This document shows positions 6,123 to 28,381 of a stretch of 34,977 bases of DNA, in pieces. Numbering within the stretch: position 1 is the stretch's first letter; each line of letters opens with the position of its first letter. Below the pieces are notes generated by a model, which made no database searches, was not told the origin of the DNA, and saw only the letters and a list, made by a program, of their open reading frames with translations. The translations under genes and the position numbers were made by a program. This stretch comes from Campylobacterales bacterium (GTDB lineage Bacteria > Campylobacterota > Campylobacteria > Campylobacterales > Sulfurimonadaceae): contig JAPLGO010000001.1 of NCBI GenBank assembly GCA_026390115.1, positions 1 to 34,977 on the forward strand. Reading direction: 5' to 3'.

Positions 6123-6207
6123 TGGTGCGGATGGGGAGACTCGAACTCCCACACCTTGCGGCACCAGATCCTAAGTCTGGCGTGTATACCAATTTCACCA
6201 CATCCGC
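6123..6207 (-). tRNA. tRNA-Leu (anticodon UAG)
   Basis: Acceptor stem GCGGATG pairs with CATCCGC, with discriminator A and encoded CCA. The anticodon loop CTTAGGA within stem CCAGA/TCTGG gives UAG. The long variable arm is characteristic of tRNA-Leu, and the T-loop GTTCGAGTC is present. It is the last gene of the leftward five-tRNA cluster and the probable attachment target of the integrase island. Confidence 0.95.
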
Positions 6208-6290
6208 GCACTATTATTATAAATTTCTGAATTTTTAATTTCTTAACTTTAGAAGTTAAAGCTGTCTCAGCGACTAGCCATATAATATTA

Positions 6291-6367
<77 letters not shown>

Positions 6368-6478
6368 AAATTTTAACCAGATTAACCCGATTAATTCTTG
6401 ATTTAAAAAAATCAAAGCTTTAGTGACCAAGAGACTAGCAAAGATAAATAGACTTCGTTCATTTACCATTAATGTAGA

Positions 6479-6555
6479 TGGTGCGCCCGATAGGATTCGA
6501 ACCTATAACCATCGGAGCCGAAATCCGAAACTCTATCCAGTTGAGCCACGAACGC
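6479..6555 (-). tRNA. tRNA-Arg (anticodon UCG)
   Basis: Acceptor GCGTTCG pairs with CGGGCGC. Anticodon loop TTTCGGC within TCGGA/TCCGA gives UCG, reading CGN arginine codons. CCA is encoded. Third gene of the cluster; a 111-nt AT-rich spacer separates it from the next tRNA. Confidence 0.95.
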
Positions 6556-6588
6556 TACTGCTTTTATTAAGTATTATATTTTGTATTA

Positions 6589-6666
6589 TGGGGTGGGATG
6601 CGGGGCTCGAACCCGTGACCCCCGGCACCACAAACCAGTGCTCTAACCAACTGAGCTAATCCCACC
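6589..6666 (-). tRNA. tRNA-His (anticodon GUG)
   Basis: Acceptor GTGGGAT pairs with ATCCCAC, with the extra G(-1) opposite discriminator C that is diagnostic of tRNA-His. Anticodon loop TTGTGGT gives GUG. CCA is encoded. Second gene of the cluster. Confidence 0.95.
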
Positions 6667-6704
6667 ATGCTAAAAAATATAAAACTTAAAATTATTTTAA
6701 AAAG

Positions 6705-6782
6705 TGGTCGGGGTGAAAGGACTCGAACCTTCGGCCCCCTGGTCCCAAACCAGGTACTCTAACCATACTGAGCTACACCCCG
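6705..6782 (-). tRNA. tRNA-Pro (anticodon UGG)
   Basis: Acceptor CGGGGTG pairs with CACCCCG. Anticodon loop TTTGGGA within CCTGG/CCAGG gives UGG. CCA is encoded. First gene of the leftward tRNA operon, starting about 40 nt after the strong promoter at 6826-6854. Confidence 0.95.
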
Positions 6783-18553: not shown

Positions 18554-18665
18554 AAAAAGTACTTCTCTCCAGATACCTGCGGCACATAACAGTTAAAGGC
18601 GTGCTGCTGCATTCCTGCCCTGACACAATATCTCGAACTGCCATTGCACAGGTCTAAAGAGAAGC
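18554..18665 (-). ncRNA. ffs: Signal recognition particle RNA (4.5S-type)
   Basis: The minus strand contains the SRP signature GTCAGGGCAGGAATGCAGCA(G) at 18624-18604: a symmetric internal loop, the GGAA-type tetraloop region and the asymmetric AGCAG loop that bind Ffh. The 3' side holds the partner GTGCCGCAGGTATCT. CTTCTCT (18664-18658) pairs with AGAGAAG (18568-18562) to close the long hairpin, and a TTTTT run at 18558-18554 ends the transcript. The roughly 112-nt size is that of the short bacterial form without Alu domain. The promoter is TTGTAA-N16-TATAAT. Confidence 0.93.
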
Positions 18666-18721: not shown

Positions 18722-19276
18722 ATGCTATATATTGTAACTGCACTCAAACCTGAAGCTCAAGCATTTATTGACAGATACAGCCTTCAAAAGAGTAAATTGG
18801 AGGATTTCAATATATTTACAAACAAAAAAACAATTCTTATTGTTGGTGGTATTGGCGTTAAGAATGCGACTCTTGCAACACAAAGTTTAATTAATCACTT
18901 CGACATCACGGACGATGATGTATATATTAATGTCGGCATCTGTGGGGCAAGTAGAAAGTACAAAATCGGTGAGCTTTTGCAGATAGATACAATAAACTAT
19001 AAAAACCATACATACTCTATCCATCAGAAAATTACAACAGCTATTGAGTGCCTCGATGAAGAATCAAGCGAAGAAAAGTATGAGATAGTTGATATGGAAT
19101 CATTTGGTTTTTATAACGCTGTAATCCACTCTCCTGCCATAAAGAATAGCTATATTTTCAAAGTTGTATCTGACCATTTTGAACCTCATAAAGTTACAAA
19201 AGATGGCACAAAATCACTTATTTTCAGTGTGATAGACGCTATAAATAGTATAATTTTTACAAAGGCTAATTTTTGA
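18722..19276 (+). CDS. Nucleoside phosphorylase-superfamily protein
   Basis: A 184-aa protein of the PNP/MTAN fold. It has IVTALKPEAQAFI at the N-terminus, the VGGIGVKNA and VGICGAS glycine segments, VDMESFGFY matching the nucleoside-binding DMEs motif, and VVSDHFE, where the catalytic Asp of MTA/SAH nucleosidases sits. It is shorter than MTAN (about 230 aa). The substrate (MTA/SAH, futalosine or something specific to cell-wall salvage) cannot be told. ATG at 18722 is preferred to a TTG at 18707 because the -10 box occupies the latter position. Its TGA overlaps the TTG start of the NagZ gene, making it the first gene of the peptidoglycan-recycling operon. Confidence 0.75.
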   Translation: MLYIVTALKPEAQAFIDRYSLQKSKLEDFNIFTNKKTILIVGGIGVKNATLATQSLINHFDITDDDVYINVGICGASRKYKIGELLQIDTINYKNHTYSIHQKITTAIECLDEESSEEKYEIVDMESFGFYNAVIHSPAIKNSYIFKVVSDHFEPHKVTKDGTKSLIFSVIDAINSIIFTKANF

Positions 19277-20367
19277 AATTTATTCTTCTTCTTCTTCTTA
19301 CACATTCTCTTAATGCAAACGATGTAAACAAAGAGGATATAAAACTTAAAAAGATGATAGGCAGAATGCTCATTGTAGGATTTGAAGATGAAAAAATCAA
19401 TGAAAAAAGTAAAATAGTAAAACAGATAAACGAGTATGAGTTGGGCGGTGTCATTCTTTTTGACCGTTTTTACAGTGACAAAACAAAAACTAAAAACATT
19501 AGCTCTCCAAAACAGCTCCAAGAGCTAACACAAAAGCTAAAATTACTCTCAGCAAAGCCGTTTTTAATCTCGGTGGACCAAGAGGGGGGAAGAGTTGCAA
19601 GATTAAAGCCCTCTTATGGATTTGATGAAATTCCATCCGCTCTCAAAGTATCCAAAGAGGGCACTCCACAAGCCAAACAAACATATGCAAAAATGGCAAA
19701 AATGTTAAAAACAAATGGCATAAACTGCAACTTTGCCCCGATTGTTGACTTGGCACTCAATCCGGAAAACAGCGTTATTGTAGGACTTGAGCGCTCTTTT
19801 GGAAGTTCAGCCGAGCAGGTTAGCAGCTATGCAAAAATGCTCATAGACGCACAAAAAAAAGAGGGTGTCCTGAGTGTACTCAAACACTTCCCAGGACATG
19901 GCTCCTCACTCGGAGATTCACATCAGGGATATGTAGATATCAGTGAAAGTTGGAGTAAAAAAGAGCTGGAGCCATACCAAACTCTCATAGATTCAAAAGA
20001 TGTTGATATGATAATGACGGCACATGTTTTCAACTCTCATTTAGATAAAAAGTACCCTGCCACACTTTCCTACAAAATCAATACAAAACTCCTAAGAGAG
20101 CAGATGAACTACAGGGGAGTAATAGTGAGCGATGACATGCAGATGAAGGCGATTTCTCAAAACTACTCCGTAAAAGAGAGTGTTGCCTTAGCGATTAATT
20201 CGGGCGTTGACATGCTTCTTTTTGGCAATCAGTTAGCTACCCAGGATATTGATGAACTTGTGGATGTAATACTAACACAGGTCAAAAGCGGAGAGATTCC
20301 AGAGGCGAGAATAAAAGAGTCAAACAAACGGATTGAGCTGCTGCTCAAGAAGAGTATAAAAGAGTGA
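19273..20367 (+). CDS. nagZ: Exported beta-N-acetylglucosaminidase NagZ-type (GH3)
   Basis: A 364-aa glycoside hydrolase family 3 enzyme that removes GlcNAc from GlcNAc-anhydroMurNAc (muro)peptides. Catalytic features are complete: VDQEGGRV at 101-108, KHFPGHG (204-210) with the acid/base dyad DSH (215-217) and VSDDMQM containing the nucleophile (about Asp287). Unlike cytoplasmic E. coli NagZ, it begins with a clear signal peptide, KFILLLLLTHSLNA, so it should act in the periplasm. The start codon is TTG, overlapping the upstream stop as TTGA; its own stop overlaps the GTG of the symporter. This places the hydrolysis step before import. Confidence 0.9.
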   Translation: MKFILLLLLTHSLNANDVNKEDIKLKKMIGRMLIVGFEDEKINEKSKIVKQINEYELGGVILFDRFYSDKTKTKNISSPKQLQELTQKLKLLSAKPFLISVDQEGGRVARLKPSYGFDEIPSALKVSKEGTPQAKQTYAKMAKMLKTNGINCNFAPIVDLALNPENSVIVGLERSFGSSAEQVSSYAKMLIDAQKKEGVLSVLKHFPGHGSSLGDSHQGYVDISESWSKKELEPYQTLIDSKDVDMIMTAHVFNSHLDKKYPATLSYKINTKLLREQMNYRGVIVSDDMQMKAISQNYSVKESVALAINSGVDMLLFGNQLATQDIDELVDVILTQVKSGEIPEARIKESNKRIELLLKKSIKE

Positions 20368-21833
20368 ACAGCGCTTTTTCTTCCCTTGACTGGATAATTT
20401 TTACAGCCTACTTTTTAGTTCTCGGTGTCTCATCTATCATTTTAAGTCGTGTTAAAATCACCTCTTCAAGAGACTATTTTATCGGTTCAAACTCCATGCC
20501 GATGCTCGCCGTTGCCATCTCTGTACTAACAACATCTCAATCTGCCGCAACCTTTTTAGGAGTTCCGGAGTACTCCTATGCAAATAATTTCACCTTTATA
20601 GGGTTTTACTTTTCAGCCCTACTCGCTGTCATTTTTGTAGCCTTTGTGCTTGTTCCCAAGTTTTATGCAATGAAGGCTGTTACGGTCTATGAACTTTTGC
20701 AGATACGCTACGGAGAAAGTGCAAAGAAACAAGCAGGAATCATGTTTTTAATAGGGCGAATTTTTGCCAGCGGAGCGAGACTCTACATCGGTTCTATTGC
20801 AATCAGCATGATACTTTTTGGGGATATTCTCTTTTTGCATGTCTCTTTTTCTATTTCTCTTTTGATGTTAGGGGCTTTGGGCTACACCTACTTTGGCGGA
20901 ATAAAATCTATAATTATCAGCGATGTTATTCAGGGAATAGTTTATATCGGTGCAGCAATTGCAGTGATGATTTTTCTCTTCAATTCTCTCGAACATGTGA
21001 GCATATTAGAGACACTCAATGCACATGATAAGCTCAAATTTATAGACACCTCCTTCGATGAAAAATTCAATATTTTCGGGCTTTTTACGGGTGTATTACT
21101 TCTCAACATTGCTGCATTCGGTCTTGATCAAGACATGACACAGAGGGTGCTCTGCTGTGAAAATAAAAAGGAGGCGGCGAAATCGCTTATTCTATCAATT
21201 CTGCTCACGATTCCGGTCGTGCTTGTTTTTTTAACCATCGGGGTTTTTCTCTATCTTTTCTACATGCAAGGTGGAGTAACTCAGAGTTTTGAAGGTGAAA
21301 AAATTACTATCTTCATGTACTATATTTTGAATGAAATGCCCGATGGCATGCGTGCAGTTGTCACAATTGGGGCGATTGCCGTAACACTCTCAAGCACAAA
21401 CTCTGTTTTGGGTGCCATGGCTTCGGTAGCGGTTGAGGATATTTACAAACCGTGGAAATTAAAAAGAGGTTACATGGATGAAATGCACTTTGTAAAAGCC
21501 TCAAGAGCAGCGGTGCTCTTTTTTGCTCTTAGTTTATCTCTTATGGCTATGGCAAGTTATTTTTGGCAGAGGTACAGCGACCTTTCACTCATCAGCTTTG
21601 CACTGGGCGTGATGGCTTTTGCCTACACAGGACTTTTGGGAGTTTACTTTTCGGCGATTTTTACAAGCCGCGGAAATGCCAGAACTGTTCCATGGGCACT
21701 CTCTGGCGGATTTCTAAGTGTTTTGGCTCTGCAACCCTACACTTTTGGAATTACAATGGATTTTTCTTGGCAGATAGTTATAGGGACAATTGTTGCATTT
21801 GGCGTAATGCAGGTAGGAGCAAGTGATGAGTGA
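20364..21833 (+). CDS. Sodium/solute symporter (SSS family), candidate cell-wall sugar importer
   Basis: A 489-aa integral membrane protein with about 13 hydrophobic segments and the SSS-family N-terminal pattern: RDYFIGSNSMPM, then VLTTSQSAATFLGVPE in TM2, and GRIFASGARLYIG further on. This is the LeuT-fold family of PutP, SGLT and the sialic-acid transporter SiaT. The GTG start overlaps the nagZ stop (GTGA) and the gene overlaps anmK by 11 bp, so it is translationally embedded between NagZ and AnmK. Context suggests it imports anhydro-MurNAc, MurNAc or GlcNAc released in the periplasm, replacing AmpG. This substrate is inference; the family assignment is firm. Confidence 0.88.
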   Translation: MNSAFSSLDWIIFTAYFLVLGVSSIILSRVKITSSRDYFIGSNSMPMLAVAISVLTTSQSAATFLGVPEYSYANNFTFIGFYFSALLAVIFVAFVLVPKFYAMKAVTVYELLQIRYGESAKKQAGIMFLIGRIFASGARLYIGSIAISMILFGDILFLHVSFSISLLMLGALGYTYFGGIKSIIISDVIQGIVYIGAAIAVMIFLFNSLEHVSILETLNAHDKLKFIDTSFDEKFNIFGLFTGVLLLNIAAFGLDQDMTQRVLCCENKKEAAKSLILSILLTIPVVLVFLTIGVFLYLFYMQGGVTQSFEGEKITIFMYYILNEMPDGMRAVVTIGAIAVTLSSTNSVLGAMASVAVEDIYKPWKLKRGYMDEMHFVKASRAAVLFFALSLSLMAMASYFWQRYSDLSLISFALGVMAFAYTGLLGVYFSAIFTSRGNARTVPWALSGGFLSVLALQPYTFGITMDFSWQIVIGTIVAFGVMQVGASDE

Positions 21834-22908
21834 AAAATATATCGGGGTGATGAGCGGAACAAGCCTTGACGGCATTGATGTTGTACTTTGTGAAATTAAT
21901 TCAAAAAGTTGCAGACTTCTTTTCTCCTCGGAATATCCTTTTGATAAAAAGCTCAAAGAGGATGTTTTACATGCAATCAACGCACCGATTACGCTTGAAT
22001 ATATAGGTCATCTCGACACCCGTTTAGGCGAACTTTTTGCCGACGCAATCAACTCTTTTCTAGAAGAAAATAATATCTCTCCGGAAGAAGTAACTGCTAT
22101 CGGACTCCATGGACAGACGCTCTGGCATCAACCCAACGGCGATTTTCCTTTTTCCATGCAACTTGGAAATCCAAATATTCTCACTACTAAAACTGGAATA
22201 AGCGTAGTAAGCGATTTCAGACGCAAAGACATCGCTAACGGCGGTCAAGGCGCACCGTTCGCACCCGCTTTCCACAAGGAAATTTTTGGCTCAATCGGAC
22301 GAAATACGGCAGTTGTAAACATAGGAGGAATGGCTAATATCACATTTTTGAACGGCGAACTTCGTGGGTATGACACTGGAGTCGGTAATGTTTTGATGGA
22401 CTACTGGATACAGCAAAACAAAAATCTATCCTTTGATAAAGATGGAAAGTTTGCGGCATGTGGAAGAGTAAATGAAGAACTATTAAAGAGCTTTTTAAGT
22501 GACGATTACTTCCAAAAACTCCCTCCAAAAAGTACAGGCAGAGAGTATTTCAACGCCACTTGGCTATCCTCGCATCTGCCTACTTTTCAAACCATAAAAG
22601 ATGAAGATATTCAGAGAACGCTCCTAGAACTCACCGCTCAAAGCATTGCAAATGAAATTCTAAACACTCCAACAGATTTGTTAATAATCTGCGGCGGCGG
22701 AGCAAAAAACAGCTTTTTAATGCAAAGACTTCAAAAGCTTTGCAAAATAAAAGTAGCAAAAAGCAACGATTTTGGAATCAGCAGCAACTTTTTAGAAGCC
22801 ATGGCATTTGCATGGCTGGCGTATAAAAGAGTGCATAATGAAGAAGTGATGCTCAGCTCTGTAACCGGTGCAAAAAAAGATTCAATTTTAGGCGGTGTTT
22901 ATGTATAA
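21823..22908 (+). CDS. anmK: Anhydro-N-acetylmuramic acid kinase
   Basis: A 361-aa AnmK-family kinase that cleaves the 1,6-anhydro ring of anhMurNAc and phosphorylates it to MurNAc-6-phosphate. Recognisable are the phosphate-binding MSGTSLDGID near the N-terminus, GLHGQTLWHQP, the FRRKDIANGGQGAPFAP substrate region, VNIGGMANITFL and CGGGAKNSFLM near the C-terminus. Length matches the family. Two adjacent ATGs (21823, 21826) can serve as start. It lies between the symporter (11-bp overlap) and AmgK, an order that defines the salvage pathway. Confidence 0.95.
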   Translation: MMSEKYIGVMSGTSLDGIDVVLCEINSKSCRLLFSSEYPFDKKLKEDVLHAINAPITLEYIGHLDTRLGELFADAINSFLEENNISPEEVTAIGLHGQTLWHQPNGDFPFSMQLGNPNILTTKTGISVVSDFRRKDIANGGQGAPFAPAFHKEIFGSIGRNTAVVNIGGMANITFLNGELRGYDTGVGNVLMDYWIQQNKNLSFDKDGKFAACGRVNEELLKSFLSDDYFQKLPPKSTGREYFNATWLSSHLPTFQTIKDEDIQRTLLELTAQSIANEILNTPTDLLIICGGGAKNSFLMQRLQKLCKIKVAKSNDFGISSNFLEAMAFAWLAYKRVHNEEVMLSSVTGAKKDSILGGVYV

Positions 22909-23839
22909 ATTCAGCAAATGGTTGGAAACAACAGCGTATAGAAATCATAGTGTAGCAGTGGCTTCGGCGGATGCTAGTTTTAGGAAGTATTATAGACTTT
23001 CGTTCAAAAATCAGAGTGTTTTATTGATGGATTCATCTTTGGAAAAAAACTCTCTGGCTCCGTTTTTGGATGTAACAGCGAGACTTTTAGAGGCAGGAGT
23101 GAATGTACCATCTATCATAGAGCAAAACCTTCAAGAGGGATTTTTGATACTCAGAGATTTTGGAAATATTCATTACCTAAATATTTTAAATAGCGATAAT
23201 TATAAAACACTTTACAGCGATGCAATGGATACTATTGTGGCGATGCAAAAGGCAGAAGTTTCAGGATTGCCGCTTTATGACAAGAGATTTCTGCATGTGG
23301 AGATGGATTTGATGCAGGAGTGGTACTTAGAAAAACTGCTGGATTGCACACTCTCACAAGCCCAAAAAAAGCTGATTCAAACTTCGCTTGACGCTATTTC
23401 GAATGTCGTGTTAGAACAGCCTCAAAATATTTTTGTACATCGAGACTTCCACTCACGAAATATCATGATTACCAGTGAAAATAAAATTGGTGTTATTGAT
23501 TATCAGGATGCCATGAACGGGGCGATTACTTATGATTTAGTTTCGCTTTTAAAAGATTGTTATATTGAGTTTCCCAGAGAGGAAGTTGAAAAACTGGTCT
23601 TAGAATTTCGTGATAAAAAGGGGCTAGAGACGGGTGATAGAACTTTCATAAAGTGGTTTGATTTTATGGGCTTGCAGAGACATATCAAAGTGCTTGGAAT
23701 ATTTTCACGTCTCTTTTTGCGTGATGGCAAAGATGGATACCTCAAAGATATTCCGCTCACTCTCAAATATGTGCTTGATACGGCTGACAGATATGATGAG
23801 ACAAAAGAGTTGGCAAAGTTTTTAAAAGAAATTCAATGA
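22901..23839 (+). CDS. amgK: N-acetylmuramate/N-acetylglucosamine anomeric kinase AmgK
   Basis: A 312-aa aminoglycoside-phosphotransferase-fold kinase that makes MurNAc-1-phosphate (or GlcNAc-1-P) for cell-wall salvage. The N-lobe carries SADASFRKYYR. The catalytic loop is VHRDFHSRNIM (Asp at about 182) and the metal-binding segment VIDYQDAM. Length agrees with Pseudomonas AmgK. The ATG at 22901 lies inside the end of anmK; a GTG two codons earlier is possible. Its stop overlaps the MurU ATG (ATGA). Identification rests on fold motifs plus its place between AnmK and MurU. Confidence 0.9.
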   Translation: MYKFSKWLETTAYRNHSVAVASADASFRKYYRLSFKNQSVLLMDSSLEKNSLAPFLDVTARLLEAGVNVPSIIEQNLQEGFLILRDFGNIHYLNILNSDNYKTLYSDAMDTIVAMQKAEVSGLPLYDKRFLHVEMDLMQEWYLEKLLDCTLSQAQKKLIQTSLDAISNVVLEQPQNIFVHRDFHSRNIMITSENKIGVIDYQDAMNGAITYDLVSLLKDCYIEFPREEVEKLVLEFRDKKGLETGDRTFIKWFDFMGLQRHIKVLGIFSRLFLRDGKDGYLKDIPLTLKYVLDTADRYDETKELAKFLKEIQ

Positions 23840-24495
23840 AAGCGATGATTTTGGCAGCCGGTCGAGGAGAGCGAATGCGCCCTCTTACGGATGCTCTTCC
23901 GAAGCCTCTTTTGGAGGTTAGAGGCAAACCTCTTATTGTTTGGCATGTAGAAAAATTGGCAGCATCCGGATTTAAAGAGATTATTATAAACATTGCTCAT
24001 TTGGGTTATAAAATCCCTGAACTTCTTGGCGACGGAAAAGCTTGGGGAGTAAAGATAGAATACTCCGATGAGCAACATGAGGGTGCACTGGAGAGCGGAG
24101 GCGGAATCATAAAAGCACTTCCCATGCTAGGAAGCAAACCTTTCTTAGTGGTCAATGGAGATGTCTTTTGCGACTATCAATTTGATACAAATTTTGAGCT
24201 TCACAATAAACTCGCACACCTCATTTTAGTGCCTAATCCCGAGCATAATCCGCAAGGAGATTTTGGTCTAAAAGAGTTTTCAGTTCTAAACAATTCCTTA
24301 ACAAATTATACATTTTCCGGAATTGGGTACTATAATCCAGAAATTTTCGATAAAATATACTATGGGAAACAGGCGTTGGCTCCCATTATTCGTGACGCTA
24401 TCGACAAAGAAAAGGTGAGTGGTGAGTTATATGACGGCATTTGGCACGACATAGGCACTCCGCAAAGACTTCAATTCATAAATAGGCAGGTTTGA
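23836..24495 (+). CDS. murU: N-acetylmuramate-1-phosphate uridylyltransferase MurU
   Basis: A 219-aa nucleotidyltransferase. The signature AAGRGERMRPLTDALPKPLL at the N-terminus binds the nucleotide, VVNGDVFCDY carries the metal-binding Asp, and WHDIGTPQRL is the C-terminal motif. In the AmgK/MurU route it converts MurNAc-1-P and UTP to UDP-MurNAc, bypassing de novo MurA/MurB synthesis and fosfomycin sensitivity. A generic sugar-1-P nucleotidyltransferase would look similar, but the overlap with amgK makes MurU the best name. It ends 1 bp before the lytic transglycosylase gene. Confidence 0.92.
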   Translation: MKAMILAAGRGERMRPLTDALPKPLLEVRGKPLIVWHVEKLAASGFKEIIINIAHLGYKIPELLGDGKAWGVKIEYSDEQHEGALESGGGIIKALPMLGSKPFLVVNGDVFCDYQFDTNFELHNKLAHLILVPNPEHNPQGDFGLKEFSVLNNSLTNYTFSGIGYYNPEIFDKIYYGKQALAPIIRDAIDKEKVSGELYDGIWHDIGTPQRLQFINRQV

Positions 24496-24496
24496 T

Positions 24497-25474
24497 ATGA
24501 TAAGAGTAATTTTACTACTGTTAATTACAACACAAATCTGGGCAAATCTCAAAAAATGTAATTTTGAAAATAAAAATTACAAAGATATTTGCCAAAAAGT
24601 GGTTGTGAATGGAGTTCCTTCCGCTTATGCAAATGAGTTTCTTGTTACAAACTTTAACTCGCAAAAGCCAGATGAAACCGAAATTAAAAACATGCCAAAG
24701 AAGCATGCGAAAGTTGATGCAAAAAACGGAAAAAAAGTTAAGAAGAAGCCATCCAAACATGCAAGTGAAATCGTCGCTCACCTGCAGGAGTACAAAGAAG
24801 TTTATGATTATGCTGAAAAAAAGTATGGCGTAAATCGTGAAATTGTCGCAATAATTTTGCTCAAAGAGTCGAAACTCGGCAAAATAAAACTCACAAATAA
24901 TGCTTTAACAGTTTTCAACTCTATGGCTACAAAAAAGAGTCCTGAGAACACAAAACAGATGGAAATCGTTGATAGCGGCAAAATAAATTTGGTAAATATA
25001 ATTACCTATTGTTATAAAAAAGGAATTGAGCCGGAGGAGTGTAACTTTCCTAGCTCACACACTGGAGCAGTTGGTATACCGCAATTTATGCCGGAAAGTT
25101 TTAGTTACATTGCCGGCTATGAAACAAAAGTCGGTGATTTGGCAAGAATGGAAGATGCTATAGTTTCAACAAGTAATTACCTCAACAAAAGAGGTTCATT
25201 TAAGAAACTGATAGATTGGGATAAAACACCAAAAATAGCAGAAACTGAAAAAGCTTGGAAAAAGTTTAGTGCAACTCATAAAAACAGCTCTTTTGTTTAT
25301 GAGAAAAGCGAAAAAGAGAGTAAAGATTATAGCTGCTTCAGATGTGAAACCGGAGAGACAGCCTATGTCAAAGAGTATGCAAAAAAACTTATGAGCTTCA
25401 ATAACTCTTCAGATTATGCTCTTGAAATTCTGAAACTTGCCTATAATGCACATATCGGACTTAGCAAATCGTAG
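24497..25474 (+). CDS. Exported lytic murein transglycosylase, MltB-like (GH103)
   Basis: A 325-aa protein with a signal peptide (MIRVILLLLITTQIWA). A Lys-rich linker lies at about 63-90, then a lysozyme-like domain. The catalytic Glu is probably Glu124 in ILLKESKLG. GAVGIPQFMPESF (190-202) matches the GAxGIxQFMPxS signature of MltB/SltB. It cleaves glycan strands to give GlcNAc-anhydroMurNAc products, the substrate of NagZ in the same operon. The C-terminal third includes a CFRC pair. No lipobox is seen, so it is probably periplasmic rather than lipidated. It is the last gene of the operon and overlaps the convergent mutarotase gene by 14 bp. Confidence 0.85.
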   Translation: MIRVILLLLITTQIWANLKKCNFENKNYKDICQKVVVNGVPSAYANEFLVTNFNSQKPDETEIKNMPKKHAKVDAKNGKKVKKKPSKHASEIVAHLQEYKEVYDYAEKKYGVNREIVAIILLKESKLGKIKLTNNALTVFNSMATKKSPENTKQMEIVDSGKINLVNIITYCYKKGIEPEECNFPSSHTGAVGIPQFMPESFSYIAGYETKVGDLARMEDAIVSTSNYLNKRGSFKKLIDWDKTPKIAETEKAWKKFSATHKNSSFVYEKSEKESKDYSCFRCETGETAYVKEYAKKLMSFNNSSDYALEILKLAYNAHIGLSKS

Positions 25475-26294
25475 CTTTTAGAGTGTGAAACTCTTTAGGC
25501 TCCAAAATTTTAAAATCTTCAAAAGCATTTGCCGATTCGATGCAGACAAACTCTCTGTAAGCATCGTCTCGCATTCCACTCATTCTTTTGCATTTTTCAC
25601 TCCATGGATTCCACACAACTATAGAGGATGAACCCTCGTTTTTAATGCTAATTGTACTATTTTTATCGATAAGTAAAATCTCGCTCTCTACCTCTTGAAA
25701 AACGCAATCAAACTCTCCACTAAATGTAATATCACTTTTTTGCACATGGTGCTTATCTGTAAGAGCATCTAAATAAGGTTTATCATTCAACCCCATAATT
25801 GCTATATTTGAGATGTCGGATATTTGAAAATAGGTGTGGAGTGCCTACGTGATTTTAAAGGGTTTTTCATCAAGGTTTGTGGTTGTAAGTTCCATAATTA
25901 ATTTTTCAGATATTGTTACTTTCAGCTCTAATAAAAAGCTGAAATTCCAAAATTCTCTGCTCTGATTTGTTTCATCTAGAATAAATGTAATTTGCGTACT
26001 GTTTTCATCTATCTCTGTGTATTTTTCTACTCTCCACATGCCGACTCTCGCAAACCCATGTTGCGGTAAATCAGGATTATTCATCCCAAAAGAGGGCCAG
26101 CAAAGGGGAATACCGCCTCGCAAAGCCTTGCCAATTTCAAAATCACTTGTATCACTGAGCCACAGAATCGGCTCTTCATTTATACGTGCAAAATGAAAAA
26201 TATGTGCACCTTGAAGTGCAATTCTTGCAGATGCAGCGTTGTTGTTCACCTCCACATATTCAAACCCATTTTCAAATTTTTTAAACTCTACCAT
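25461..26294 (-). pseudogene. D-hexose-6-phosphate mutarotase (YeaD-like), interrupted by an in-frame amber codon
   Basis: The frame is 277 codons, normal for the aldose-1-epimerase-like hexose-6-phosphate mutarotases, but codon 150 is TAG (25847-25845). The N-terminal 149 residues contain LRGGIPLCWPSFG and HGFARV, hallmarks of the family. After the TAG the same frame continues directly with ALHTYFQISDISNIAI, the strongly conserved segment with the catalytic His, and ends after WNPWSEK and FVCIESANA. Relatives commonly have Gln or Glu just before ALHTYF, so a single base change explains it. No frameshift is involved. It could be a recent pseudogene, a sequencing error or suppressed read-through. 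It is the third gene of the HAD/porter operon. Confidence 0.85.
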
Positions 26295-26295
26295 G

Positions 26296-27561
26296 TCAGC
26301 TCCACGAACTCATTTTGCGCCATTTTAGGGCATACATAAATATAAAGAAATAGCAGACCACTCCAATAAGATAGGTGAACTGCATGTCTCCGCTCAGTTG
26401 GGAGATTTTTCCAAATAGAAGCGGGAGAACTGCTCCTCCGGCTATTGCCATAATAAGGAGGGCGCTTCCTTGTGCAGTATATTTTCCTAGTCCCTCAAGT
26501 GCCAAAGGCCAGATTGTAGGCCATACGAGGGCATTTGCAAAGCCCAAAAGTGCTACAAAAGCTACACTGTTTGGAAGAGTGGGAATTCCGCTCCAGCCCC
26601 ACAATATTTCTGAAACTTCGCTGCTGCTGTTTGAGCTAAAAGCGACTCCCAGCAAAAATAGAATTCCTAAAACAGAGGAGCCCATTAATGCCGCTTTTTG
26701 TGAGAGAAATTTAGGTATAAATGCTACTCCGACCAAATAGCCAAAAACCATAAAAATCATAGTGTAGGAGGTTAGAGCTGTTGCATTTTCAACACCTAAA
26801 CTCTGCCCGTAAAGCCCTATTGTATCACCTGCGATAACCTCTATTCCGACATAAAAGAATAGTGCAACAGCACCTAAAATTACCCGTGGGAAGTGAAAAA
26901 TGCTCTCTTTATCTTCATGCTCTTCGTGGCATTCAAGTTCGGGAAGCGATGAAAATTTTATCAAAAGAATCAGAAAACTAAGCACAACTGCCATAATAAG
27001 ATAGGGCACAATCAATCTATGTGCCAAGGATTCAATATCTGCTGCTGAAAGCTCAACATACAAGAGATTTGGAATATCAGAGAGAATAAGAGCCGTAAAA
27101 ACTAAAGGAACCAGAACCCCTGCACTCTTGTTTATAAGCCCCATAATACTTATTCGCATGGCAGCACTCTCTATTGGACCTATCAAAACTACATAAGGGT
27201 TTGAAGCAGTTTGTAGCGTTGTGAGTCCTGTTCCGAGAGTAAAAAGTGCCAACAAAAAGAGTGCATAGTTTGCGCCCAAAGCAGCAGGAATAAAGAGGAG
27301 ACTCCCAATGACCATTATGCCCAAACCGATTGCCATGGCATTTTTATATCCCGTTTTTTCTAAAACAAAAGACATTGGCAGAGCCATGACGGTGTATGCT
27401 ATGTAAAAAGCAAAGGTAACAAAGAGCGATTGAAACTCTGTTAAATCGCATATAACATTCAAAAAAGGAATTAGGGAACCATTGAGCCATGTCACAAAAC
27501 CAAATATAAAAAAGAGCGTACCTATGATAATCATTGGCAGAATTGTTGATTTTTCACTCAA
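26296..27561 (-). CDS. Sugar/proton symporter, FucP/GluP-type MFS
   Basis: A 421-aa, roughly 12-TM major-facilitator protein. The N-terminal part (FGFVTWLNGSLIPFL, then FAFYIAYTVMALPMSFVLEKTGYKN in two pieces) is the FucP/GluP glucose-galactose porter pattern, as in Helicobacter HP1174. The second half contains GFANALVWPTIWPLALEGLG, also typical. It probably imports a hexose with protons or sodium. It starts 1 bp after the HAD phosphatase stop and ends just before the mutarotase, forming an operon for uptake and handling of a sugar. The exact sugar is unknown. Confidence 0.88.
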   Translation of the reverse strand: MSEKSTILPMIIIGTLFFIFGFVTWLNGSLIPFLNVICDLTEFQSLFVTFAFYIAYTVMALPMSFVLEKTGYKNAMAIGLGIMVIGSLLFIPAALGANYALFLLALFTLGTGLTTLQTASNPYVVLIGPIESAAMRISIMGLINKSAGVLVPLVFTALILSDIPNLLYVELSAADIESLAHRLIVPYLIMAVVLSFLILLIKFSSLPELECHEEHEDKESIFHFPRVILGAVALFFYVGIEVIAGDTIGLYGQSLGVENATALTSYTMIFMVFGYLVGVAFIPKFLSQKAALMGSSVLGILFLLGVAFSSNSSSEVSEILWGWSGIPTLPNSVAFVALLGFANALVWPTIWPLALEGLGKYTAQGSALLIMAIAGGAVLPLLFGKISQLSGDMQFTYLIGVVCYFFIFMYALKWRKMSSWS

Positions 27562-27562
27562 A

Positions 27563-28381
27563 CTAGACTCCTTCTAAATATTTTGCTACGCCATCTTCAT
27601 CGTTTGTATGCGGCAGGACAATATCGGCGAACTTTTTTACCTCGTTTTGGGCGTTTGCAACTGCTACCGCAGTGTTTGCCAACTCAAACATTCCCAAATC
27701 ATTGAAGTTATCACCAAAAACCGTAAGATTTGAGAGCTCAAAATTGCTCTGCTCGCTTACGCTCAAAATACCATGCGACTTATCCGCATTTTTATGTAGA
27801 ACTGTCAAAAAGTAACATCCTACATATGCCTCGGGTGCCAAAATAAACTTGAGAGTATCACCAAACATCTGCTTTAAATGTTTTTCAAGATTTCGTAATA
27901 ACTGCTCTTCTCCCATGTAAACGATCTTAAAGTTATCACGCATCGCTCTGAGATTCTGGCGCTCTTGAAGGTTGTCATCTTTGGAATATCTCGATAAAAC
28001 ACTTTTTTGATGTTCATTTAAAACAGTAGAATAAAGAAAAGCTTCATTCAAATTTTGATCAGCCAAAGCCAGAACAAAAGGGTAAATACCGAATTTTCCA
28101 CCCTCTTCTATAATGATATCTGCAACCTCTTGAGTTATAAACTTTGTCTCTATTATCTTCCCCTCTATCGTAGCAATCAGTGCACCGTCAAGAAGAATCA
28201 TGGGAGTGTTTATATGAATGCCTTTTAAAAATTCTGCTGTTTTTTTGTAGGTTCTGGCAGTTGCAACACTCAGCAATGCCGTGTCTGCTTTTGCATTCCA
28301 AATCTCTTTAGTAAAAGCACTCAGAGATAAATCTGTTCGTAAAAATGTGTGGTCAAGGTCTGTTATGTATATGTTTTTCAT
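27563..28381 (-). CDS. HAD-superfamily phosphatase (Cof/IIB type)
   Basis: A 272-aa HAD hydrolase with nucleophile motif I DLDHT (Asp8, Asp10), motif II in SVATART, a C2-type cap in the middle and motif IV FGDNFNDLGMF. It belongs with Cof/YbiV and sucrose-phosphatase-like enzymes acting on sugar phosphates. It is first in a leftward operon with a sugar porter and mutarotase, so a hexose-phosphate substrate is likely. No ribosome-binding site is seen; a TATACT -10 box ends 6 nt before the ATG, suggesting a leaderless mRNA. It could also supply the phosphatase missing from the facing peptidoglycan operon, but MupP belongs to a different HAD subclass. Confidence 0.82.
   Translation of the reverse strand: MKNIYITDLDHTFLRTDLSLSAFTKEIWNAKADTALLSVATARTYKKTAEFLKGIHINTPMILLDGALIATIEGKIIETKFITQEVADIIIEEGGKFGIYPFVLALADQNLNEAFLYSTVLNEHQKSVLSRYSKDDNLQERQNLRAMRDNFKIVYMGEEQLLRNLEKHLKQMFGDTLKFILAPEAYVGCYFLTVLHKNADKSHGILSVSEQSNFELSNLTVFGDNFNDLGMFELANTAVAVANAQNEVKKFADIVLPHTNDEDGVAKYLEGV

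Follow-up and report, generated by a model that had tools for sequence, protein, structure and literature searches.

Gene Content and Linkage in Sulfurimonas-Related Bacteria Point to Peptidoglycan Recycling with Periplasmic Cleavage before Import

The window, as we call the whole 34,977-nucleotide stretch of Campylobacterales DNA analyzed here, carries at positions 18722–25474 an operon for peptidoglycan recycling in which genes for the salvage of N-acetylmuramic acid (MurNAc) are combined with a sodium:solute symporter (SSS). Based on gene content, linkage, co-inheritance and leader sequences, we consider it probable that Sulfurimonas-related bacteria recycle peptidoglycan in a periplasm-first manner, cutting wall fragments before importing them. 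The MltB-like lytic transglycosylase of the operon would release GlcNAc-anhydroMurNAc-peptides (GlcNAc, N-acetylglucosamine), a secreted amidase resembling AmpD (encoded on its own here, fused to NagZ in several relatives) would strip off the peptide, a secreted NagZ would cleave off GlcNAc, and the SSS carrier would bring in the anhydroMurNAc with Na+. In the cytoplasm, AnmK would convert the latter to MurNAc-6-phosphate (MurNAc-6-P), a HAD-IIB phosphatase (best candidate at 27563–28381) would yield MurNAc, and AmgK and MurU would carry the flux on to UDP-MurNAc. In the window's family, a NagP-like carrier may additionally import GlcNAc, which AmgK could phosphorylate too.

Results

All seven genes listed in the initial annotation of 18722–25474 were found in the open reading frame (ORF) list of the window, densely packed and on the + strand; their description as overlapping holds for five of the six junctions, the remaining one being a 1-base gap. 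Six of the family names given at that time could be matched in Pfam or NCBIfam: NagZ, a GH3 N-acetylglucosaminidase of 364 amino acids with a secretion-like leader and without an amidase domain (19273–20367; PF00933, E 9.7e-70); the SSS symporter, proposed here as the anhydroMurNAc carrier (20364–21833; PF00474 (SSF), E 1.2e-21); the anhydroMurNAc kinase AnmK (21823–22908; PF03702, E 2e-132, also exceeding its NCBIfam cut-off); the MurNAc/GlcNAc 1-kinase AmgK (22895–23839; NF045759, E 1.7e-77, at 260.7 bits below the 550-bit cut-off); the MurNAc-1-P uridylyltransferase MurU (23836–24495; NF045761, E 3e-91, exceeding the cut-off); and the leader-bearing MltB-like lytic transglycosylase (24497–25474; PF13406 (SLT_2), E 3.8e-26). 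The window thus holds the MurNAc salvage set of AnmK, AmgK and MurU, the AmgK assignment being the one that scores under its cut-off. The seventh name, PNP-like protein for the first gene, is backed by weak matches only. The operon had also been thought to encode every step except for one phosphatase; in fact, two steps have no gene among the seven, the MurNAc-6-P phosphatase and the peptide-removing amidase. Candidates for both had been overlooked, the phosphatase at 27563–28381 of the window and the amidase elsewhere in the same genome (G000:C9:41324-41752), as had the putative GlcNAc carrier.

Each part of the pathway was searched for in 298 Campylobacterota genomes, in which membership of the SSS clade was called with a profile of 20 sequences at E ≤ 1e-60. 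Here and below, the window's genus is called Sulfurimonas and the second family Sulfurovum-type, both names being deduced. AnmK was found in 27 genomes, and the SSS clade in 26 of these versus none of the 271 genomes lacking anmK (Fisher's test, 1.6e-36; this and the following p values overstate independence, as related genomes are treated as separate). The single anmK genome without a symporter match, G284, is a 240-contig assembly, and only 678 bases separate the start of its anmK from the end of a contig. Amidase_2 domains occurred in 47 genomes (26/27 with and 21/271 without anmK; 1.8e-23) and GH3 in 117 (25/27 and 92/271; 2.0e-9). AnmK and the symporter are both missing from four species of the window's genus (G015, G027, G254, G289), as is expected if the pair is kept or lost together.

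Stretches of ~11–19 kb around anmK were fetched from the 26 other genomes, giving 27 maps together with the window. AmgK and MurU were present in all 27, the symporter in 24, and NagZ as well as the transglycosylase in 14 each. Those without the symporter stem from G234, G266 and G284; in G266, a PNP-like gene, NagZ and SSS stand together on a separate contig, and in G234 the SSS gene is located on another contig without NagZ nearby. In two sister-genus genomes (G191, G288), SSS lies ~5 and 8 kb from anmK. A separate collection, partly covering the same species, comprised the best 80 of 565 confirmed SSS matches (named loci); the titles of all 80 are of Campylobacterota type, other phyla being visible only through plasmids. 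Of the 70 named loci that extend 1 kb or more past SSS, 58 have anmK following at no more than 1.5 kb. Of the 75 that reach 1.2 kb or more in the upstream direction, 29 have both NagZ and the amidase directly before SSS, 23 have NagZ without the amidase, 17 have the amidase without NagZ and 6 have neither, such that NagZ and/or the amidase directly precedes the symporter in 69/75 and NagZ in 52/75. L078 and L079, the two loci whose SSS is most similar to that of the window (96% and 88% identity), keep the PNP-like gene together with NagZ, SSS and AnmK. The conserved symporter linkage that the initial annotation wished to see checked is thus borne out by both the neighborhood maps (24/27) and co-inheritance (26/27 versus 0/271), and the grouping of these genes, judged from the co-occurrence and linkage counts, exceeds chance. 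As a side note, an ORF resembling class D beta-lactamases by eye (L079:8705-9427) directly follows anmK in L079, where amgK has moved away.

Potential export was gauged from the best 10-residue hydropathy mean within the first 35 residues, a simple measure rather than a trained predictor, with starts taken as the first possible codon, which blurs some N-termini. NagZ N-termini gave values of 2.08–3.41 in all 14 operon copies. A value of at least 2.0 was reached by 12 of 14 transglycosylases, by 0/27 AnmK (highest 1.99), 0/27 AmgK, 1/27 MurU and 1/7 PNP-like proteins, which extends to relatives what had initially been noted for NagZ and the transglycosylase of the window. Hydrophobic leaders were also seen by eye on nine unlinked NagZ proteins of Sulfurovum-type genomes, among those read. 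All 14 operon copies contain KHFPGHG...DSH, which we take to be the Asp-His loop motif of NagZ. The leaders support a predicted export of NagZ without proving it.

The NagZ proteins of the 14 stretches fall into two sizes, 364–370 amino acids (window plus five) and 550–575 amino acids (eight). The C-terminus of the long form resembles the amidase of the Sulfurovum-type family; Pfam scans detected GH3 plus Amidase_2 in 3/3 long forms, and the one scanned against NCBIfam gave a weak AmpD match. In an alignment of 15 amidase domains (8 fused, 6 free and the window genome's own), a His, His, Asp triad, presumably the zinc ligands of AmpD, is retained in all. Sulfurovum-type genomes encode a free secreted (leader-bearing) amidase directly upstream of SSS, and the free amidase of the window's genome, located away from the operon, bears a leader as well. 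The peptide-removal step therewith has a gene, and one that looks periplasmic as far as its leader can tell. Further free amidases were found in G126, G186, G200, G252, G266 and G287. In all seven genomes (the window's plus these six), a DUF819 membrane protein adjoins the free amidase, and four of these genomes also carry a gene for an epimerase within a few kb of it (the G126 stretch ends 0.7 kb past DUF819). At L075:8151-11003 (G000:C9), the amidase gene overlaps that for DUF819, which in turn overlaps the epimerase gene, whose product has its best match to L-Ala-D/L-Glu epimerase, below the cut-off. This arrangement suggests a peptide branch of recycling, with DUF819 as candidate carrier of murein peptide. 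YkuD-like proteins of the L,D-transpeptidase type were also noticed by eye near the amidase (L075:5750-6445 and L055:2985-3677), and relatives of the L075 protein occur near the amidase in 3/6 further stretches.

The closest solved structure to the symporter by sequence is the sodium/sialic acid symporter SiaT (E 1.2e-31). An AlphaFold2 model (mean predicted local distance difference test score 82.9) matched 5NVA best (Z 43.2, root-mean-square deviation 2.6, 457 residues aligned, 24% identity), above other SSS members. Residue roles in SiaT follow PMC5931594. The carboxylate residues Ser60 and Thr63 are kept and invariant in an alignment of 20 symporter sequences; Asp182 and Arg260 of SiaT (5NV9/5NVA) correspond to invariant Asp187 and Arg261, its Na2 serines align with Ser343 and Ser344, of which Ser344 is invariant, and its Na3 serine 345 is replaced with Asn346. 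The symporter deviates from SiaT, apart from the low identity, in its peptidoglycan-gene neighbors and in having Ala at the position of Arg135, so that the full carboxylate set Ser60/Thr63/Arg135 is not present; invariant Arg132 and Arg139 flank this position, about one turn to either side. The pattern would suit a pocket that binds another N-acetylated sugar acid, and in the context of the operon the substrate would be anhydroMurNAc. Uptake of sialic acid is not favored, as the neighbors in both lineages carrying this clade (see below) are peptidoglycan genes and Arg135 is displaced; a search for sialic-acid genes was not made.

The second lineage was encountered in a tblastn search of plasmids with the symporter. 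Among the best 25 of 105 matches, five sphingomonad records showed 41–44% identity and a Croceicoccus record 36%, the other 19 being at 24–31%. The annotated neighbors in Novosphingobium EMRT-2 are AnmK, a TonB receptor, SSS, MurQ and GntR; in Sphingopyxis granuli, TonB receptor, SSS and MurQ are annotated together. Of the unannotated records, Novosphingobium RL4 showed the EMRT-2 gene order when its ORFs were read by eye, and the Croceicoccus record has an AnmK match 7.3 kb from SSS. On three sphingomonad plasmids, at L158:3889-10482, L159:7986-10431 and L161:3888-10500, the SSS clade thus has murQ and a gene for a TonB receptor as neighbors, with anmK too in L158 and L161. Across 23 Campylobacterota and 3 sphingomonad symporters, 99 residues are invariant, including Arg132 and Arg139. 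One other AnmK-bearing plasmid record was inspected and had no symporter annotated in its stretch. As an aside, a PP2C-phosphatase-like gene lies immediately upstream of anmK in L158 and L161.

The initial annotation had named an ampG homologue, together with a lack of symporter linkage, as what would refute its interpretation. The AmpG profile TIGR00901, which does match in E. coli and others, found nothing at E 0.001 when run on the window's genome; AmpG-like matches, none over the cut-off, occurred in 33/298 genomes and in 0/27 of those with anmK. The MurQ profile TIGR00274 likewise gave nothing over the cut-off in the window's genome, where a single weak match falls in a 617-amino-acid frame. 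Downstream of the operon, on the − strand, lie the genes for a Cof-type HAD-IIB hydrolase (27563–28381; PF08282, E 1.5e-40) and a NagP-like carrier of the major facilitator superfamily (26296–27561; NF046060, 511.9 bits, cut-off 625), the latter a candidate GlcNAc importer. Relatives of the HAD protein exist in 27/27 anmK genomes at 49–100% identity, and their gene is inside the fetched anmK stretch in 16/27, window included. Within the window's family, a NagP-like carrier was found in every genome with anmK (16/16) and in none of those without it (0/11), and its gene adjoins the HAD gene in 16/16 genomes. Of the 11 second-family genomes with anmK, in which NagP was not found, 9 have the HAD gene inside their anmK stretch, which indicates that it follows the MurNAc route and not the GlcNAc carrier. 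We propose this HAD-IIB protein as the best candidate for the MurNAc-6-P phosphatase.

Discussion

At the level of genomes, the comparisons support the interpretation initially put forward for this operon, namely cleavage in the periplasm combined with uptake by a sodium-coupled carrier. Several observations weigh against it. The NagZ of the window, at 2.26, has the second-lowest hydropathy of the 14 by our simple, untrained measure, and NagZ alone is not diagnostic because GH3 is also present in 92/271 genomes lacking anmK. In L078 and L079, the window's nearest relatives, amgK is not adjacent to anmK (in the genome of L078 it is found ~6 kb past anmK, provided contig C15 is the contig of L078), and no AnmK match was obtained within the Sphingopyxis granuli stretch (L159). 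The salt-bridge residue Arg135 of SiaT is replaced in the symporter with an invariant Ala135. The absence of AmpG from anmK genomes is by itself not significant (Fisher p 0.055), and of 11 MFS_1 matches in the window's genome, only the NagP-like one is identified. HAD-IIB relatives were also present, at 38–47% identity, in 6 of 17 anmK-lacking controls (11 belonging to the window's family, the other six picked from the second family), and the NagP-like carrier was found in none of 17 second-family genomes, 11 of which have anmK.

Pseudomonas-type MurNAc salvage proceeds via AnmK, MupP, AmgK and MurU, with MupP belonging to another HAD subfamily than Cof-type HAD-IIB. The operon described here is alike in clustering AnmK, AmgK and MurU, in the presumed endpoint UDP-MurNAc and in the lack of an above-cut-off match to the etherase MurQ, but differs in that no AmpG match was found, in the leaders on NagZ and the amidase, in the SSS carrier and in the HAD-IIB phosphatase candidate. 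With the AmpG-dependent import of E. coli, where NagZ and AmpD are cytoplasmic, it shares a lytic transglycosylase, NagZ, an AmpD-like amidase and AnmK; here, however, the order appears inverted, with cleavage before import, and AmpG was not found. NagZ of Bacillus is extracytoplasmic. The localization of NagZ indeed varies between recycling systems, mycobacterial LpqI being a further extracytoplasmic case (PMC6572805). LpqI and Bacillus NagZ are both similar to the proposed route in that NagZ acts outside the cytoplasm. To our knowledge, neither of them is part of a diderm AmgK/MurU system with an SSS carrier or a NagZ–amidase fusion. In Agrobacterium, AmpG is replaced by YejBEF-YepA, an ABC importer of muropeptides, and ampD and nagZ mutants accumulate cytoplasmic intermediates (PMC9790009); the symporter would substitute for AmpG as well, but as a secondary carrier whose proposed substrate is a monosaccharide.

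A carrier of MurNAc outside the phosphotransferase system (PTS) is known from Tannerella forsythia, whose MurT belongs to the sodium symporter superfamily according to the introduction of PMC5790795 and to the major facilitator superfamily according to its discussion. It has been suggested that MurT might carry anhydroMurNAc, and E. coli MurP has been reported to do so (PMC7670621). MurT is comparable to our proposed anhydroMurNAc carrier as a non-PTS carrier of MurNAc, and differs in its catabolic setting with MurK and MurQ, in an organism that keeps AmpG and has no predicted AnmK (PMC7670621). Caulobacter uses the usual AmpG route with NagZ (PMC13046382), another unusual MurNAc route has been proposed in a mycobacterial preprint (PMC13041923), and a marine SSS protein transports an oxidized chitin sugar acid (PMC9537276). 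A term search of a review of prokaryotic SSS members (PMC7918813) gave no hit for muramic, MurNAc or peptidoglycan. Every element of the proposed route has precedent. Their combination, the NagZ–amidase fusion and the SSS–AnmK pairing were not found in the open-licence PMC literature searched, where the fusion was not searched for by name, and this literature also yielded no study of Sulfurimonas peptidoglycan recycling or of an SSS anhydroMurNAc carrier, which is weak evidence of absence.

A different order of events would result if the symporter were to import intact GlcNAc-anhydroMurNAc as an AmpG substitute, with a membrane-anchored or cytoplasmic NagZ cutting afterwards. Larger fragments are imported elsewhere by AmpG and YejBEF-YepA (PMC9790009), and the export of NagZ is deduced from leader features only. 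Nevertheless, we regard this scenario as unlikely, as it leaves unaccounted for the leaders on 14/14 operon NagZ proteins, the fusion of NagZ to an amidase whose free relatives bear leaders of their own, and the position of NagZ directly upstream of SSS in 52/75 named loci. Moreover, AnmK, the usual gene after SSS, acts on a monosaccharide. A cytoplasmic NagZ as in E. coli is not favored, given the leaders and the amidase fusion.

Slightly more remote still is a main role in scavenging environmental MurNAc or anhydroMurNAc instead of recycling the cell's own wall. The sphingomonad clusters with the SSS clade look catabolic, as they include MurQ and NagA along with a TonB receptor, and T. forsythia MurT imports external MurNAc (PMC5790795). 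The Campylobacterota set, in contrast, ends at UDP-MurNAc, with AmgK and MurU in 27/27 neighborhoods; MurQ is not over the cut-off in the window's genome, the operon has its own transglycosylase, and no outer-membrane importer is among its named genes, a genome-wide search not having been made. That the symporter carries something unrelated, such as GlcNAc or another N-acetylated sugar, and owes its place in the operon to shared regulation only, is scarcely credible despite a nearest solved relative that carries sialic acid and a substrate deduced from context, considering the co-occurrence with AnmK (26/27 versus 0/271), the mur genes next to SSS in the sphingomonad lineage and the NagP-like carrier that the window's family has in addition.

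Beyond periplasm-first recycling as such, we are tentative, and on balance a little skeptical, about a complete diderm route of this kind, in which SSS would serve for anhydroMurNAc, the NagP-like carrier for GlcNAc and DUF819 for murein peptide, the HAD-IIB protein would be a new MurNAc-6-P phosphatase, and the SSS clade would represent a family of anhydroMurNAc carriers that sphingomonads share. If periplasm-first recycling holds true, then the recycling order can be inverted in Gram-negative-type cells, to cut and then import, and a missing AmpG need not mean missing recycling. Candidates would also be at hand for a family of anhydroMurNAc carriers and for the phosphatase acting on MurNAc-6-P, and recycling would become open to testing in bacteria for which the literature searched contains no study of it.

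Other Features of the Window

The first gene of the operon encodes a PNP/MTA-nucleosidase-like protein (18722–19276, +) that has no Pfam match and scores weakly in NCBIfam (at best E 7.8e-10, with 38.6 of 161 bits); such a gene was found in 7/27 anmK neighborhoods, window included, and there is no evidence for a pathway role of its product. Downstream of the operon lies an aldose-epimerase-like gene on the − strand (25461–26294), which is split into two pieces (25461–25796 and 25845–26294, PF01263 matching the longer one). Its counterpart is whole in relatives such as L048, where it is a single 278-amino-acid ORF; a frameshift, decay or a sequencing error may have caused the split, and the fetched stretches of the two nearest named relatives gave no real match to it. 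A bacterial small signal recognition particle RNA is encoded at 18563–18660 (−), divergent from the operon, whose first gene begins ~60 bases away, and a cluster of five tRNA genes is located at 6126–6782 (−).

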